Shown here one piece after another: positions 55,463-60,390 of a DNA stretch of 64,000 nt. Numbering within the stretch: position 1 is the stretch's first letter; the number at the start of each line of letters is the position of its first letter. A program made the position numbers and the translations under genes. The notes beneath the pieces were generated by a model that did no database searches, was not told the DNA's origin, and was given only the letters and a program-made list of their open reading frames with translations. This DNA is from Allomuricauda sp. (GTDB taxonomy: Bacteria > Bacteroidota > Bacteroidia > Flavobacteriales > Flavobacteriaceae), in contig CP051244.1 in NCBI GenBank assembly GCA_017795045.1, positions 3,296,306-3,360,305 of the forward strand, written 5' to 3'.

Positions 55463-55621
55463 TGTGTTTTCATACTCTATCATGTACAAAACAACCATAA
55501 AATCATTCAAAAAGTAGGGGATTTTGATGTTTAATTGTTGTAAGAAAAATAAACGGATAAACAATTTTATCCCTGTTTTTTTGTTATAGTTTTGTACATA
55601 CCAAACCCTATACCATTGAAA

Positions 55622-56425
55622 ATGCCCAAAGTGAGCACCCCAAAGCAAAAAATATCAGCATTGATCATTACCTACAATGAAATGGGTTACATTGAAAAAT
55701 GTATCGATTCCGTTTCATTTGCTGATGAAATCATCGTTGTTGACTCTTACAGCACTGATGGTACCTACGAGTATTTATTGGCACATCCCAAAGTAAGGGT
55801 CATCCAAAACCCTTTTGAGAATTTTACTGCACAAAAGTCATTCACCCTAAAACAGGCCAAAAATGATTGGGTCCTTTTTTTGGATGCTGATGAGGTAGTG
55901 ACCCAAAAATTACAAAAGGAAATTACGGCCACCATTAATGACCCGGAAGCCTGCGAAGCCTATTGGTTTTATCGCAAGTTCATGTTCCAAAACACACCAC
56001 TTAATTTCAGTGGGTGGCAAACAGACAAAAACCATAGACTCTTCAGGAAAAGTAAAGTGCGTTTCACAGACAAAAAATTGGTGCATGAAACGTTGGAAGT
56101 GGATGGTTGTTCCGGTATCTTAAAAGAGAGGCTTACCCATTATTGCTATAAAAATTACGAAGATTATAAAGGTAAAATGCTAAAGTACGGACAGTTAAAG
56201 GCCAAAGAGGACTTTTACAAGGAAAAGCATTTTAACTATGTGCTCATGATCGTAAAACCTTTTTGGAAATTCTTCAACCACTACATTATAAGACTTGGTT
56301 TCTTGGATGGCAAAAAAGGCATCAAAATCTGTTACCTTAACGCCCTTGGTGTACTGGAAAGGTTCCGTGAGCTTAAACGATTGGAAAAGAAAAACGAATT
56401 GGCCTACTATTTGGTGATGCCATAG
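55622..56425 (+). CDS. Glycosyltransferase family 2 (WaaE/KdtX type)
   Basis: This 267-residue cytoplasmic transferase has the GT2 start SALIITYNEMGYIEKCIDSV, the DSYSTDGTYEYL region, and the DXD-type motif VLFLDADE. It is similar to LPS inner-core glucosyl/heptosyl transferases of the WaaE group. The start at 55622 is preferred; the frame is open to 55592. A perfect TAnnTTTG (TAGTTTTG, 55587-55594) is 27 bp upstream. It begins the glycan region and overlaps the next convergent gene by 19 bp. Confidence 0.85.
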   Translation: MPKVSTPKQKISALIITYNEMGYIEKCIDSVSFADEIIVVDSYSTDGTYEYLLAHPKVRVIQNPFENFTAQKSFTLKQAKNDWVLFLDADEVVTQKLQKEITATINDPEACEAYWFYRKFMFQNTPLNFSGWQTDKNHRLFRKSKVRFTDKKLVHETLEVDGCSGILKERLTHYCYKNYEDYKGKMLKYGQLKAKEDFYKEKHFNYVLMIVKPFWKFFNHYIIRLGFLDGKKGIKICYLNALGVLERFRELKRLEKKNELAYYLVMP

Positions 56426-57219
56426 TGCGTCCAAACTGCCTTTTTGGACTTTGTCTCTTTTCGTATCAGTTGATTTTTAGCAATCGCCTCTGGTGTTTTA
56501 TACCCTCTCTTATGGTCTAAATGCACACATACAGCACTATATCTTAGCTGTTTTGACTTTATTCCAAAATTGAAAAGACGCTCTCCCAATTCCCTGTCCT
56601 CACCGCCATATTGCATCCGCTCATCAAAACCATTGATGTTCAGTATATCTTTTTTCCATGCCGAGGAATTGTGACCATTCCAACTGGCATTGGTTGGTGT
56701 AATCGTATTCAAAAGCTTTGAGATAAACCCACTTGCTGTTAGTTTATTATTCTTAAAAGTCTTGGGAATACCCATCTCCTTCAACCATTGGATATTAAAA
56801 CAGTTCTGTTTTTCAATATCCTCCAAAGTAATGGCCTTTGAAATGTTCATGGGCAGCATATAATACCCCCCAGAAATAAAATAACCTTGCTCTTTGTTGA
56901 TGTAATGCACCTGCACAAAATCTTCCCTGGGAATACAATCCCCATCTGTCATGATGATGTATTCCGCATCGCAAACATCAATGGCCTTGTTCAGGATTCT
57001 GCATTTCTGAAACCCTTCATCTTCTTGCCAAACATGCTTGATGTCATAAAAGACCTGCTCCCGCATTTCTTCTACCATCTGTTTCGTCTCGGGCCCCGAA
57101 CCATCATCGGCCACTATAAGCTCAAAACCCCTGTATGTTTGGCAATTGAAACCCCATAGGACTTTTTTCAACCATTCCGGGTTATTGTAGGTACTTACTA
57201 TGACGCTTACCTGAATCAC
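56407..57219 (-). CDS. Glycosyltransferase family 2 with galactosyltransferase-type C-terminal domain
   Basis: This 270-residue protein has VSVIVSTYNNPEWLKKVLWG at the start, IVADDGSGPETKQ, MTDGDCIPRED as the DXD site, and the GGEDRELGERLFNFG motif of the Glyco_transf_7C domain. It is probably an LPS or capsule transferase. It is the only minus-strand gene in this part of the cluster and looks somewhat richer in A/T than its neighbours. Confidence 0.85.
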   Translation of the reverse strand: MIQVSVIVSTYNNPEWLKKVLWGFNCQTYRGFELIVADDGSGPETKQMVEEMREQVFYDIKHVWQEDEGFQKCRILNKAIDVCDAEYIIMTDGDCIPREDFVQVHYINKEQGYFISGGYYMLPMNISKAITLEDIEKQNCFNIQWLKEMGIPKTFKNNKLTASGFISKLLNTITPTNASWNGHNSSAWKKDILNINGFDERMQYGGEDRELGERLFNFGIKSKQLRYSAVCVHLDHKRGYKTPEAIAKNQLIRKETKSKKAVWTHYGITK

Positions 57220-57305: not shown

Positions 57306-58349
57306 ATGTCCAGAACCTATGTGGGATCTACCATATATCATATTTATCTTGCACTCCTGCATATCCTGAAAGATTCGAGATACGAAACGCATAATCTAGG
57401 GGAAAATCTTCTTTTTTTGGTGGAAAGCACACCCATGATCGAAACCCTTATCCCCAACCTAAAAAAGCACTTTTTCCGGGACGTCCATATCATATCGGAA
57501 CGAAAAGACCATGTGTCCGACCTCGGAAAATTCAATTATTCATTCCGAAGGAAACAAAAACTCATTCCCTACTTGGAATCCAAACACCCTGTTCTCGCCA
57601 AGGAAAAGCCCTTTATCCAAAATTCGGACATCTATCTGTGCGATACCGATTCGTCCAAAAGTTATTTTCTCTACGAGTTTGGCAAAAAAGACCTCAACAT
57701 GATAGAGGATGGGGCACGCACCTATAGCCAGCGGCACAGTGGTTTTGAACAATTCATAAAGACCTATCTTACCAAGACGCCCATTGGTGGTGGTTTTGAT
57801 AAAGAGATAAAGACCATTTTTGCCCAATTCCCTGAAAAGTTACCTGCCCCACTCCCCAAAAAAGCTGTGGAGTTGAACATCAAAAAAGAGGTGGCTAAGC
57901 TGGATGAAAAAACCAAACAGGAAATTTTCTCCATTTTTCTACCGGAAAATGCCTTTGCCATCAAAGGGGACAACAATGCACTGATTCTAACCCAACCTAT
58001 ATCCGAAGACAGGGTCATAAAGAACGAGGCAGAGAAAATAGCCATCTACAGGGATGTGATATCAAAGGTGCCTTCGGGCATGAACATCATTTTGAAAACC
58101 CATCCAAGAGAGACCACCCAATACAAAGAACATTTTAAGGACATTACCGTGTTACCCGCCCTTTTCCCTATAGAAATATTGGGCCTGCGGGAAGGTTTTT
58201 TCTTTGAACAGGGCTATACCCTATTTTCCACTGCACTCTCCAATTTGGAAATTGTTAAGCACAGATTTTTTCTGGGCAAGGATTATTTGGATAAATTTAC
58301 CGTTAAAGCAACCAAGAACCTGATAAAGAACATGAACGTTCATCCATAG
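57306..58349 (+). CDS. Sialyltransferase-like protein (GT52/GT38-like)
   Basis: This 347-residue protein shows the two hallmark motifs of bacterial sialyltransferases. These are the D/E-D/E-G motif in NMIEDGARTY (residues 134-136) and the HP motif in ILKTHPRET (266-267), with a Ser/Thr motif near 308 (FSTALS). It has no signal peptide or membrane segment. It would transfer a nonulosonic acid from its CMP form to a surface glycan acceptor. The next two genes make the CMP-sugar, which supports the call. Overall identity to known families cannot be measured here. Confidence 0.72.
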   Translation: MSRTYVGSTIYHIYLALLHILKDSRYETHNLGENLLFLVESTPMIETLIPNLKKHFFRDVHIISERKDHVSDLGKFNYSFRRKQKLIPYLESKHPVLAKEKPFIQNSDIYLCDTDSSKSYFLYEFGKKDLNMIEDGARTYSQRHSGFEQFIKTYLTKTPIGGGFDKEIKTIFAQFPEKLPAPLPKKAVELNIKKEVAKLDEKTKQEIFSIFLPENAFAIKGDNNALILTQPISEDRVIKNEAEKIAIYRDVISKVPSGMNIILKTHPRETTQYKEHFKDITVLPALFPIEILGLREGFFFEQGYTLFSTALSNLEIVKHRFFLGKDYLDKFTVKATKNLIKNMNVHP

Positions 58350-58358
58350 CATTCAGTT

Positions 58359-59531
58359 ATGTCACAAAAAAGCATCGGATTCATACCACTACGAAAAAAC
58401 TCAAAGGGCATCCCCGGCAAGAACAAAAAGAAATTGTTGGGCAGACCCTTGTTCACTTGGGTATTGACAGAAGCCATCTTCTCAAACCTTGACGAGGTCT
58501 ATGTCTTTACCGATGACGATGACATCATCGATTACATTTCCCAGCATTTTAAATGGGCCCCAAAGGTAAAACCCCTGAAACGCTCCGATGAAAATGCCTC
58601 GGATACTGCTTCCACCGAAGCAGCCATGTTGGAATTTTGTGAGTCCGAACAGATTGATTTTGATGTTTTCTGCCTATTGCAGGCCACATCGCCCCTTACC
58701 AAAAGGAGCGACATCAACGCGGCCTTGGCCCAATTGGACAATGGAGGTTTTGATGCTGTCCTCAGTGTAGTGAATACACACCGTTTCACTTGGTCCAAAG
58801 ATGGAAAACCGTTGAACTACGACTTCAAAGCAAGACCAAGACGACAGGATTTTGATGGATTTCTTATTGAAAATGGCGCGGTCTACTGTACCCACAAAGC
58901 AGCCCTTCTGGAGTCCAAAAACAGGTTGAGCGGCTCCATTGGCCTTATTGAAATGCATGAAGAAACTTTGGTGGAGATTGATTCCGAAACCGACTTTCAG
59001 ATTATTGAGCAATTACTGATTTCCCATTTCAAATCCAACAAATCCGCCCAACGCATCAACCACTTTATTTTAGATGTGGATGGTGTTTTCACGGACGGCA
59101 GTGTCACCTTCAACAAAGAAGGGGAATTTTCCAAACGCTTTGACATGCGCGATGGCATGGGATTGGAAGTATTGCGCGAGCATGGGGTCAATGTCATGGT
59201 CATGACCTCAGAAAATTCACAAGTAGTGGGTCAGCGCATGAAAAAATTGAAGATAGCGGATACCTTTTTGGGTATAAAGGACAAATATTCGTTTCTGGAA
59301 CACCTCTTTTCGGAAAGAAATATCTCCCCAAAGGAGATTGCCTATATTGGGGACGACGTAAACGATTGGAGCAACATTCTAAGGGCCGGCTGGTCCTTTT
59401 GCCCCTCAAACGCAACCAAACATATCAAACACCATGCAGATATGGTCTTAAAGAACAAATCTGCGCAAGGTGCCATTCGCGAGGCTTGCGAATTTATCAT
59501 CAACTATAATCTAAGATTCAATGACCTATAA
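58359..59531 (+). CDS. neuA: CMP-nonulosonate synthetase fused to KdsC-type HAD phosphatase
   Basis: This 390-residue two-domain enzyme begins with a cytidylyltransferase domain (residues 1-225): the CTP-binding FIPLRKNSKGIPGKN, the LLQATSPL strand and the ARPRRQD region. A full KdsC-like HAD domain follows (residues 233-385) with motif I DVDGVFTDG (239-247), the MTSENS motif II, a GIKDK Lys, and motif IV GDDVND (331-336). All the catalytic residues of the HAD domain are kept. The layout is that of animal CMAS. The phosphatase would remove the 9-phosphate before CMP activation. It overlaps neuB by 11 bp. Confidence 0.85.
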   Translation: MSQKSIGFIPLRKNSKGIPGKNKKKLLGRPLFTWVLTEAIFSNLDEVYVFTDDDDIIDYISQHFKWAPKVKPLKRSDENASDTASTEAAMLEFCESEQIDFDVFCLLQATSPLTKRSDINAALAQLDNGGFDAVLSVVNTHRFTWSKDGKPLNYDFKARPRRQDFDGFLIENGAVYCTHKAALLESKNRLSGSIGLIEMHEETLVEIDSETDFQIIEQLLISHFKSNKSAQRINHFILDVDGVFTDGSVTFNKEGEFSKRFDMRDGMGLEVLREHGVNVMVMTSENSQVVGQRMKKLKIADTFLGIKDKYSFLEHLFSERNISPKEIAYIGDDVNDWSNILRAGWSFCPSNATKHIKHHADMVLKNKSAQGAIREACEFIINYNLRFNDL

Positions 59532-60390
59532 AGAACCCTATATCATTGCCGAAATCGGATGCAATCACAAAGGCGACATGAAAATCGCCAAGGAGTTGAT
59601 CAACATGGCCAAAATTTTTGGCAATGCCAATGCGGTAAAATTCCAAAAGCGGAACAATAAAGAATTACTGACCGAGGCGCAGTACAATGCCCCCCACCCC
59701 AATCCCATCAATTCTTATGGGGATACTTATGGGGCACACCGAGAATTTTTGGAGTTCGATGTGGACCAACACCAAGAATTGAAAGACTATTGCGAAGAAG
59801 TAGGTATTACCTACTCCACTTCCGTTTGGGAAACCACCTCCGCCAAGGAGATTGCCGGATTGAACCCGGATTTTATAAAAATCCCATCCGCCTGCAACAA
59901 CAATTTTGAGATGTTGGGATGGTTGTGCGATAATTACCATGGGGAAATCCATATCTCAACGGGAATGACTACCAAGGACGAAATCAAAATACTTGTGGAC
60001 TTTTTTGATGAGCGAGGTAGAGGCAAAGACTTGGTCGTCTACAATTGTACCTCGGGCTATCCCGTCCCTTTTGAGGATGTCTGCCTCTTGGATATTTTAA
60101 CCCTTCAGGAAAAATATGGCGACAAGGTAAAAAGCATCGGGTTTTCTGGGCACCACTTGGGAATTGCCATAGATGTTTCCGCCTATACTCTGGGCGCCCA
60201 TGTCATTGAACGGCATTTTACCCTTGACCGGACCTGGAAAGGTACCGACCATGCCGCCTCCTTGGAGCCTATGGGACTTCGCAAACTGTGTAGGGACCTC
60301 AGGGCCACCCACAAAGCATTGACCTACAAACAAAAAGACATTCTGGATATTGAAAGCGTTCAGCGCGAAAAGTTGAAATACAAAAAATAA
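59521..60390 (+). CDS. neuB: N-acetylneuraminate/nonulosonate synthase, short form without SAF domain
   Basis: This 289-residue TIM-barrel enzyme condenses phosphoenolpyruvate with a hexosamine to a nine-carbon acid. The motifs YIIAEIGCNHKGDM, AVKFQKR, YSTSVWETTSAKEI, IKIPSACNNNFEML, STGMTT and IGFSGHHLGI are present, with ERHFTLDRTWKGTDHAASLEP near the end. Typical NeuB has 340-350 residues with a C-terminal SAF (antifreeze-like) domain; here the chain ends after the barrel. The SAF part is missing, and no downstream frame continues it. Pairing with a phosphatase suggests a 9-phosphate product (KDN or Neu5Ac type). The next gene begins directly after the stop. Confidence 0.85.
   Translation: MTYKEPYIIAEIGCNHKGDMKIAKELINMAKIFGNANAVKFQKRNNKELLTEAQYNAPHPNPINSYGDTYGAHREFLEFDVDQHQELKDYCEEVGITYSTSVWETTSAKEIAGLNPDFIKIPSACNNNFEMLGWLCDNYHGEIHISTGMTTKDEIKILVDFFDERGRGKDLVVYNCTSGYPVPFEDVCLLDILTLQEKYGDKVKSIGFSGHHLGIAIDVSAYTLGAHVIERHFTLDRTWKGTDHAASLEPMGLRKLCRDLRATHKALTYKQKDILDIESVQREKLKYKK

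Follow-up and report, generated by a model that had tools for sequence, protein, structure and literature searches.

With regard to the synthesis of nonulosonic acids, a three-gene cassette of Allomuricauda sp. poses a question: what is made by a NeuB-type synthase that lacks the SAF domain and is encoded directly behind a cytidine monophosphate (CMP)-nonulosonate synthetase fused to a phosphatase of the HAD type? The cassette lies in a stretch of 64,000 nucleotides (GenBank assembly GCA_017795045.1, contig CP051244.1, positions 3,296,306 to 3,360,305 of the forward strand), which in its full length is termed the window here and to which all coordinates refer. From sequence we consider it probable, at roughly three chances in four, that the encoded enzymes synthesize and transfer a deaminated sialic acid, the best candidate being 2-keto-3-deoxy-D-glycero-D-galacto-nononic acid (KDN), via KDN-9-phosphate formed from mannose 6-phosphate (Man-6-P). 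The source genome, a single contig of 3.76 Mb in an assembly that is 92.5% complete, is Flagellimonas-like, the window NeuB sharing 99% identity with its counterparts in Flagellimonas olearia and F. alvinocaridis, and it encodes one NeuB. The three open reading frames are arranged head to tail, with a gap of 9 bases after the first and an overlap of 11 bases between the second and third. Residues of the synthase are given below with their counterparts in Neisseria meningitidis (Nm) NeuB:

57306..58349, plus strand: sialyltransferase-like glycosyltransferase of the GT52/polysialyltransferase (polyST) type, 347 amino acids (PF07922, PF07388; EDG at 134-136, HP at 266-267)
58359..59531, plus strand: predicted bifunctional CMP-nonulosonate synthetase/nonulosonate-9-phosphate phosphatase, 390 amino acids (PF02348, 6.9e-18, plus KdsC-type HAD)
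58359..59024, plus strand: cytidylyltransferase (CMAS/NeuA) domain of this protein, residues 1-222 (PF02348, PDB matches)
59040..59519, plus strand: HAD phosphatase domain of the same protein, residues 228-387 (catalytic D239, D241, T283, K309, D332 and D333; BT1713-type E285, R293 and K296)
59521..60390, plus strand: predicted SAF-less NeuB-type nonulosonate(-9-phosphate) synthase, 289 amino acids (PF03102, AlphaFold model)
59647..59652, plus strand: K43-R44 (Nm 56-57), one half of a phosphatase-linked signature (99 of 99 in the SAF-less clade; R57 tracks the presence of a HAD)
59725..59742, plus strand: T69-Y-G-A-H73-R74 (R74 = Nm 83), the second half (H73 and R74 in 99 of 99; R83 tracks the presence of a HAD)
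59893..59895, plus strand: Cys125 at the position of Nm Glu134, from residue counts in the clade vs. other synthases
60343..60378, plus strand: conserved C-terminal tail, residues 275-286, L-x-I-E-x-x-Q-R-x-K-L-K, which stops where SAF would start

The synthase belongs to the NeuB family, as it matches PF03102 over the full length of the model (1-241 of 241; 4.8e-67, 226 bits). TIGR03569, the N-acetylneuraminate synthase equivalog, is matched at positions 2-273 of 329 only and with 204.7 bits vs. a cut-off of 399.65, which places the protein outside this equivalog and indicates that the SAF part is missing. The sequence-only reading had thus been right about a barrel without SAF, though not about an end near residue 285, since the protein ends at residue 289. 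It matches eight PDB sequences, of which seven have 349-385 residues, the extra length presumably being SAF. The AlphaFold model (pLDDT, the predicted local distance difference test score, 92) has a barrel similar to 6ncs, a 290-residue Leptospira chain (Z 34.5), and to the N. meningitidis enzyme (Z 33.3 for 1xuu); VIA-align gave the same top ranking as Foldseek, with model residues 271-289 barely tested there. Fold (Z 33) and catalytic residues are shared with Neisseria NeuB (1xuu, 2wqp), whereas the window synthase has no SAF and no Arg314, carries Cys in place of Glu134 and possesses the additional residues Arg57 and Arg83. The shared residues, which we take to be catalytic in the Neisseria enzyme, are E25, N29, K53, K129, S132, S154, Y186, S213, H215, H236 and D247, and they are conserved in 96-99 of 99 clade members. 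The same holds true for each of the tail residues L275, I277, E278, Q281, R282, K284, L285 and K286, and the SAF-less proteins end just ahead of the position of Arg314. In Neisseria NeuB this SAF residue serves the acetamido group of the sugar; R314A and R314K mutants of the enzyme are deposited in the PDB. Position 134 is occupied by Cys in 94, Thr in three and Ser in two of the 99 clade members vs. Asp in 16, Glu in ten and Ser in three of 29 other synthases.

Lys56-Arg57 and His82-Arg83 (Nm numbering) set the SAF-less clade apart from synthases linked to NeuC or DegT, which carry other residues at these positions; the TYG-x-H motif as such also occurs in the animal synthase. The combination of R57 and R83 is present in 99 of 99 SAF-less synthases. 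For comparison, 60 loci with SAF-containing NeuB were drawn from the matches in 299 sampled genomes of the family, down the E-value list and irrespective of phosphatase; at least L179, L180, L184, L193 and L199 among them have shorter flanks at a contig end. Both arginines occur in 14 of these 60, and a HAD is encoded within about 6 kb in all 14, vs. none of the 46 loci without the pair (Fisher, 5.8e-14), so that the split is complete. A NeuC or DegT gene adjoins 42 of the 46 loci without the signature and none of the 14 with it. Among 79 SAF-less loci (L036-L114, mostly with about 6 kb of flank per side; L035, on a short contig, was excluded) NeuC is found beside none and DegT beside two, both genes having been sought by single query sequences. 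In three loci with more than one NeuB the best-scoring copy was taken, and the one case among the 79 scored as lacking the signature is a second NeuB of L098.

Phylogenetic analysis of 65 synthases places the SAF-less clade (21 rows) on a branch with support of 100/100. Together with 14 synthases of the type found beside relatives of BT1713, the KDN-9-phosphate phosphatase of Bacteroides thetaiotaomicron (BT type), and three of a second SAF-less type it forms one group supported at 99/99, which stands apart from all other rows, Neisseria NeuB included; the root and the long branches of this tree are uncertain.

The second SAF-less type (L130, L135 and L136, as well as L171 and L172) comprises frames of 292-298 amino acids with an adjoining stand-alone HAD and is sister to the window clade at 94/82, the join lying between long branches. 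Phosphatase-linked NeuB proteins of a further kind, with about 580-600 amino acids, an N-terminal extension of about 250 amino acids and R57/R83 present, are encoded in L145/L175 (5194-6996) and L168 (6347-8140).

NeuB relatives are encoded in 157 of the 299 family genomes. In 47 of these, the source included, identity to the window protein is 63-100% and the open frames span 291-343 residues; the best of the remainder reaches 44%. A scan of named genomes yielded 80 loci from, among others, Flavobacteriaceae, Arcobacteraceae, Sulfurimonas, Henriciella, Planctomycetota, Clostridia and an archaeal bin; the named records with clade synthases stem from Campylobacterota, Alphaproteobacteria, Clostridia, Planctomycetota and the one archaeal bin, many of them being metagenome bins. 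In all 109 loci with a match above 300 bits (some genomes being counted twice) NeuB ends at most 12 residues past the query match, which renders chance truncation unlikely. The search for SAF-less NeuB beside fused CMAS in other genomes, which had been proposed as a check, thus returned the combination from several phyla: a HAD lies within reach in 76 of the 79 SAF-less loci and is fused to the cytidylyltransferase in 69. The fused gene mostly precedes NeuB in Flavobacteriaceae and mostly follows it elsewhere, and several neighbouring gene clusters are common to 13 to 25 of the 79 loci. In L057 (Flavobacterium covae) and L088 (F. davisii) cytidylyltransferase and HAD occupy two frames, not one.

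The fused protein (AlphaFold pLDDT 91) consists, as had been read from the sequence, of a CMP-nonulosonate synthetase domain (about residues 1-220) and an intact KdsC-like HAD domain (about 228-387). The closest PDB match of the former is 9t4z, the CMP-Kdn synthetase PpNeuA of the alga P. parvum (1.7e-41, 40% identity), followed by mouse CMAS, and on the strength of this kinship the domain is a candidate CMP-KDN synthetase. The mouse CMAS structures 1qwj and 3ewi match the two domains of the 390-residue protein. All 25 aligned fusions have residues D239, D241, T283, K309, D332 and D333 of the HAD domain in common, and none of the 103 fused HAD frames (again with some genomes counted twice) lacks the catalytic Asp pair. 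The idea that the activating enzyme contains its own phosphatase gains from E285, R293 and K296, which correspond to E56, R64 and K67 of BT1713 and recur as an E/R/K triad in all 103 fused frames as well as in 14 of 14 stand-alone HADs beside SAF-containing synthases picked irrespective of HAD. Among the HADs of the 79 SAF-less loci the triad is found in 76 of 77, with R/R/E in L092, and 52 stand-alone HADs, many from loci selected because of their HAD, read E/R/K (42), D/R/R (seven), R/R/E (two) and G/R/G (one). Four KdsC-like PDB chains compared by eye do not contain both E and K in any case; the PDB chain 4hgq departs from wild type at E56. Work by Daughtry in 2013 reportedly defined KDN-9-phosphate phosphatases by such a Glu/Lys pair, E56/K67 conferring specificity for KDN-9-phosphate, and is said to have described these enzymes both stand-alone and fused to a nucleotidyltransferase. 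Among the NCBIfam models, the one for KDN-9-phosphate phosphatase, NF058599, fits the window HAD best (130.1 bits). The domain also belongs to the KdsC/YrbI subfamily (TIGR01670; 127.2 bits, cut-off 106.95) and falls short of the KdsC equivalog NF007019 (126.4 vs. 208). A separate stand-alone KdsC-type protein with G/R/G at the triad positions is encoded elsewhere in the source genome, and the fused HAD was rejected as the sole KdsC of the cell.

Several parts of this arrangement have counterparts in characterized systems. BT1713 belongs to the same HAD subfamily as the window phosphatase and has the same E/R/K residues, and the synthases beside its relatives share R57/R83 and one larger clade with the window synthase. 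In its four best-scoring relatives (L115-L118) the phosphatase is separate, whereas that of the window is fused, and the adjoining synthases, where seen whole, comprise about 345 amino acids and have SAF, which the window synthase lacks. BT1714 is a Kdn-9-phosphate synthase with Man-6-P as substrate, the corresponding algal (P. parvum) synthetase took Man-6-P and not six other sugars, BT1713 removed phosphate from the algal product, and the P. parvum CMP-Kdn synthetase gave no product with Neu5Ac (PMC6200933). PpNeuA, the closest solved relative of the window activating domain, is part of a phosphorylated route from Man-6-P; the algal CMP-Kdn synthetase itself has 273 amino acids and a predicted C-terminal membrane segment, and a clear phosphatase homologue was not found in the alga (PMC6200933). 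According to the same source the animal synthase has a lower Michaelis constant for N-acetylmannosamine (ManNAc) 6-phosphate than for Man-6-P (PMC6200933). Like the window enzyme, animal CMAS consists of two domains, the C-terminal one being KdsC-like, and operates in a 9-phosphate route. The animal synthase NANS keeps its SAF domain. For Leptospira, a nonulosonate pathway through a phosphate, with a phosphatase-like domain fused in, was put forward in 2012 (PMC3438082), and Serratia makes KDN in vivo, its sialic acid production depending on neuB and its NeuB carrying a COG1082 domain (PMC9000132). In both genera the extra domain (endonuclease/phosphatase-like and COG1082, respectively) is located on the synthase, in contrast to the window cassette, where it resides on the activating enzyme. 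The likeness to animal CMAS noted in the sequence-only reading stands. The layout is more ordinary than that reading suggested, fusion of KDN-9-phosphate phosphatase to the nucleotidyltransferase having reportedly been described before, and bacterial 9-phosphate routes being on record for Bacteroides and, as a proposal, for Leptospira (PMC6200933, PMC3438082).

The first gene of the cassette fits the GT52 family of bacterial sialyltransferases, with PF07922 (Glyco_transf_52) matched at E 1.3e-21 and 77.5 bits (cut-off 26.1) and the polysialyltransferase family PF07388 at 2.7e-11. Bacterial sialyltransferases are defined by (D/E)(D/E)G and HP motifs (PMC5811610), which are present as had been noticed: E134, G136, H266 and P267 are invariant in 21 of 21 aligned sequences, that of the window included, and position 135 is D in 20 and E in one.

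Computation covered which genes are present, where domains end, which residues are conserved, how the genes are linked and how the synthases are related; substrate, product, a role of the signature in phosphate binding, the order of steps and the acceptor are what we infer from them. The SAF-less synthase, which clade membership and signature mark as a putative KDN-9-phosphate synthase, would condense phosphoenolpyruvate with a hexose 6-phosphate, most likely Man-6-P, to KDN-9-phosphate. The C-terminal HAD domain of the 390-residue enzyme would then remove the phosphate, its N-terminal domain would activate free KDN with cytidine triphosphate to CMP-KDN, and the GT52-type enzyme would add KDN to a surface glycan. 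On this reading SAF would be dispensable, because the sugar to be bound carries no N-acetyl group and is gripped by its phosphate instead, with Lys/Arg at 56-57 and His/Arg at 82-83 as the probable binding residues. Both a route via a 9-phosphate and a synthase working without SAF had been suspected at the outset, and sequence lends support to either: the former by the BT1713 triad, Arg57/Arg83 and the grouping with phosphatase-linked synthases, the latter by the conservation of the SAF-less form across phyla. A SAF protein encoded elsewhere, which had been named as a possible objection, was looked for and not found in the source genome (PF08666, no match at E 0.001, control matches in 8 of 14 genomes); the supply of SAF by another protein of this genome is accordingly rejected as far as this search extends.

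The initial assignment of the product as KDN- or Neu5Ac-like can be narrowed, KDN being more likely and N-acetylneuraminic acid (Neu5Ac) less favoured, since amino-sugar genes hardly occur next to synthases of this clade and Neu5Ac is rejected by the nearest cytidylyltransferase of solved structure. The same 9-phosphate route could in principle lead from ManNAc 6-phosphate to Neu5Ac-9-phosphate, which the HAD would dephosphorylate as in animals. The layout in common with animals, mouse CMAS being matched in either half, speaks for such a route, as does the capsule of Serratia marcescens, whose content of both sugars, KDN and Neu5Ac in a ratio of about 20:1, depends on the capsule locus (PMC9000132). 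We nevertheless hold it to be unlikely. Neither NanE nor NeuC was found in the source genome, which counts against ManNAc 6-phosphate as a precursor and leaves the bacterial NeuC-NeuB-NeuA pathway to Neu5Ac without its hydrolysing UDP-GlcNAc 2-epimerase. The lack of NeuC noticed in the window thus extends to the genome, whose sole PF02350 epimerase is of the WecB type (316 bits vs. 79 for NeuC) and is encoded, by contig coordinate, some 2.26 Mb ahead of the first base of the window. WecB makes UDP-ManNAc. The lack of NeuC beside all 79 relatives, the position of Arg314 past the end of the protein and the KDN specificity of the nearest solved cytidylyltransferase point in the same direction. 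Somewhat less likely again is an undescribed nonulosonate, made from another hexose 6-phosphate or representing a modified deaminated sugar, with Cys at position 134 in a changed active site. It would account for the replacement of Glu/Asp by Cys in 94 of 99 proteins, for the many residues invariant specifically in the clade and for MBOAT-family genes in 19 of the 79 loci, which suggest acylated products; the phosphatase triad and the kinship of the activating domain, on the other hand, point to KDN itself.

An ordinary NeuB pathway that uses free sugar (ManNAc or mannose), in which the HAD would be an inactive or structural relic, is hard to reconcile with invariant catalytic residues in all aligned fusions, the ubiquitous Asp pair, the phosphatase-linked signature in every SAF-less synthase and the failure to find NeuC, and we consider it quite improbable. 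That the cassette is decaying and its NeuB an inactive, truncated remnant without SAF could be argued from the greater length of seven of the eight matched PDB sequences; with one end point common to 109 of 109 loci, tail and catalytic residues conserved in 96-99 of 99 proteins and several gene clusters of the neighbourhood recurring in 13 to 25 of the 79 loci, this explanation retains next to no credibility, and a pseudogene was rejected on account of the shared end point.

A number of observations weigh against KDN synthesis via KDN-9-phosphate as set out above. The supply of Man-6-P is its weak point, because ManA, the type I mannose-6-phosphate isomerase, was not found in the source assembly by PF20511 or TIGR00218, a match to PF01050 remaining below the cut-off; of the 46 other cassette genomes 20 were tested and all 20 have the enzyme, and mannose-1-phosphate guanylyltransferase is present in the source genome. 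The window HAD scores below the NF058599 cut-off of 180, barely exceeds its own score for the KdsC subfamily (130 vs. 127) and in pairwise comparison is matched slightly better by the KdsC-like chains 3n1u (95.9) and 4um5 (95.7) than by BT1713 (94.3). It is consequently read as working like a KDN-9-phosphate phosphatase and not filed as a member of the equivalog; two fused relatives beside SAF-less NeuBs do exceed the cut-off, with 190.4 and 181.1 bits. The fused HAD is missing from 10 of the 79 SAF-less loci, and three, L106 as well as L090 and L103, both of which end shortly past NeuB, contain no HAD at all. In addition, in L027 (736-1449) a SAF-less NeuB is accompanied by a cytidylyltransferase frame of 237 amino acids without HAD, none being present in this short locus. 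The BT-type rows of the tree, including nine of the 14 signature loci, form one clade, so the association of signature and HAD is not independent for each locus and reflects few events, and with single queries divergent copies of NeuC and DegT could be missed. Finally, the BT-type synthases beside the closest relatives of BT1713, which are taken to be KDN-forming, keep SAF, with an Arg in an R-S motif (mostly E-R-S) taken as the counterpart of Arg314. A missing N-acetyl group alone can therefore not explain the loss of SAF; this explanation is weakened, and phosphate binding offers the better account.

Bacterial KDN biosynthesis via a 9-phosphate is already known (PMC6200933; PMC7845648, Table 1), and both pathway and fusion are of known kinds. 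In the literature searched, which excluded most subscription papers, no description of the SAF-less synthase lineage or of the R57/R83 signature was found, and these apparently constitute the undescribed part. We give even odds to the wider proposal that the SAF-less proteins are an unrecognised synthase lineage crossing phyla that has given up the domain credited with completing the active site, reads hexose 6-phosphate via Lys-Arg/His-Arg in place of an N-acetyl group via Arg314, has Cys for Glu/Asp and is tied to the phosphatase fusion, and that Arg57/Arg83 sorts NeuB proteins into users of phosphorylated and of free sugars. If true, bacterial NeuB could be classified in this respect by sequence alone, many genes now labelled N-acetylneuraminate synthase would be reassigned to KDN, and many environmental bacteria would be makers of KDN and not of Neu5Ac. 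KDN has been reported in about 50 prokaryotic polysaccharides, mostly from environmental bacteria, which would make a gene signature for its synthesis useful (PMC7845648). The cassette would furthermore provide a natural experiment on the role of the SAF domain of NeuB, and its compact pair of genes could supply CMP-KDN for the synthesis of glycans.

SAF-less cassettes also reside on plasmids. The Sinorhizobium plasmid loci L222, L223 and L224 encode SAF-less NeuB of 61-62% identity followed by a cytidylyltransferase-HAD protein of 389 amino acids, in which the E/R/K triad is kept and Asn takes the place of one Asp in the later DD motif in all three. The cassette of S. meliloti ml28 adjoins a gene annotated as alpha-2,3-sialyltransferase and one for capsular polysaccharide, and two S. 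fredii strains carry the cassette on plasmids. The plasmid search matched 98 records, and all 10 with at least 60% identity are among the 60 listed; five of these 10 are annotated, as 'N-acetylneuraminate synthase family protein' or 'Sialic acid synthase'. The S. fredii strain from which KDN has been reported, which is HH103-derived, is absent from these 10 records. KDN in a polysaccharide of S. fredii is cited in PMC9000132, and the link to the SAF-less cassette is suggestive only.

Thirty loci with NeuB relatives were found on viral contigs from IMG/VR (L226-L255), five of which exceed 300 kb. In 28 of the 30 NeuB has no SAF-sized tail (at most 24 residues past the match), and L253 and L254 have 71-80 residues; within 4-kb flanks a cytidylyltransferase-HAD fusion occurs in two, a separate HAD in 14 and no HAD in 14. 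Taking the contigs as viral by their label, phage-borne synthesis of the KDN type is possible.

The cassette of the window is preceded by two GT2 genes, one per strand, and followed by a TsaC-type gene:

55592..56425, plus strand: GT2 glycosyltransferase (PF00535, 1.1e-20)
56407..57219, minus strand: GT2/galactosyltransferase-like protein (PF00535, 2.1e-17; PF02709, 2.7e-06)

The former probably belongs to the same glycan locus as the cassette, and its cluster recurs in 18 of the 79 SAF-less loci.

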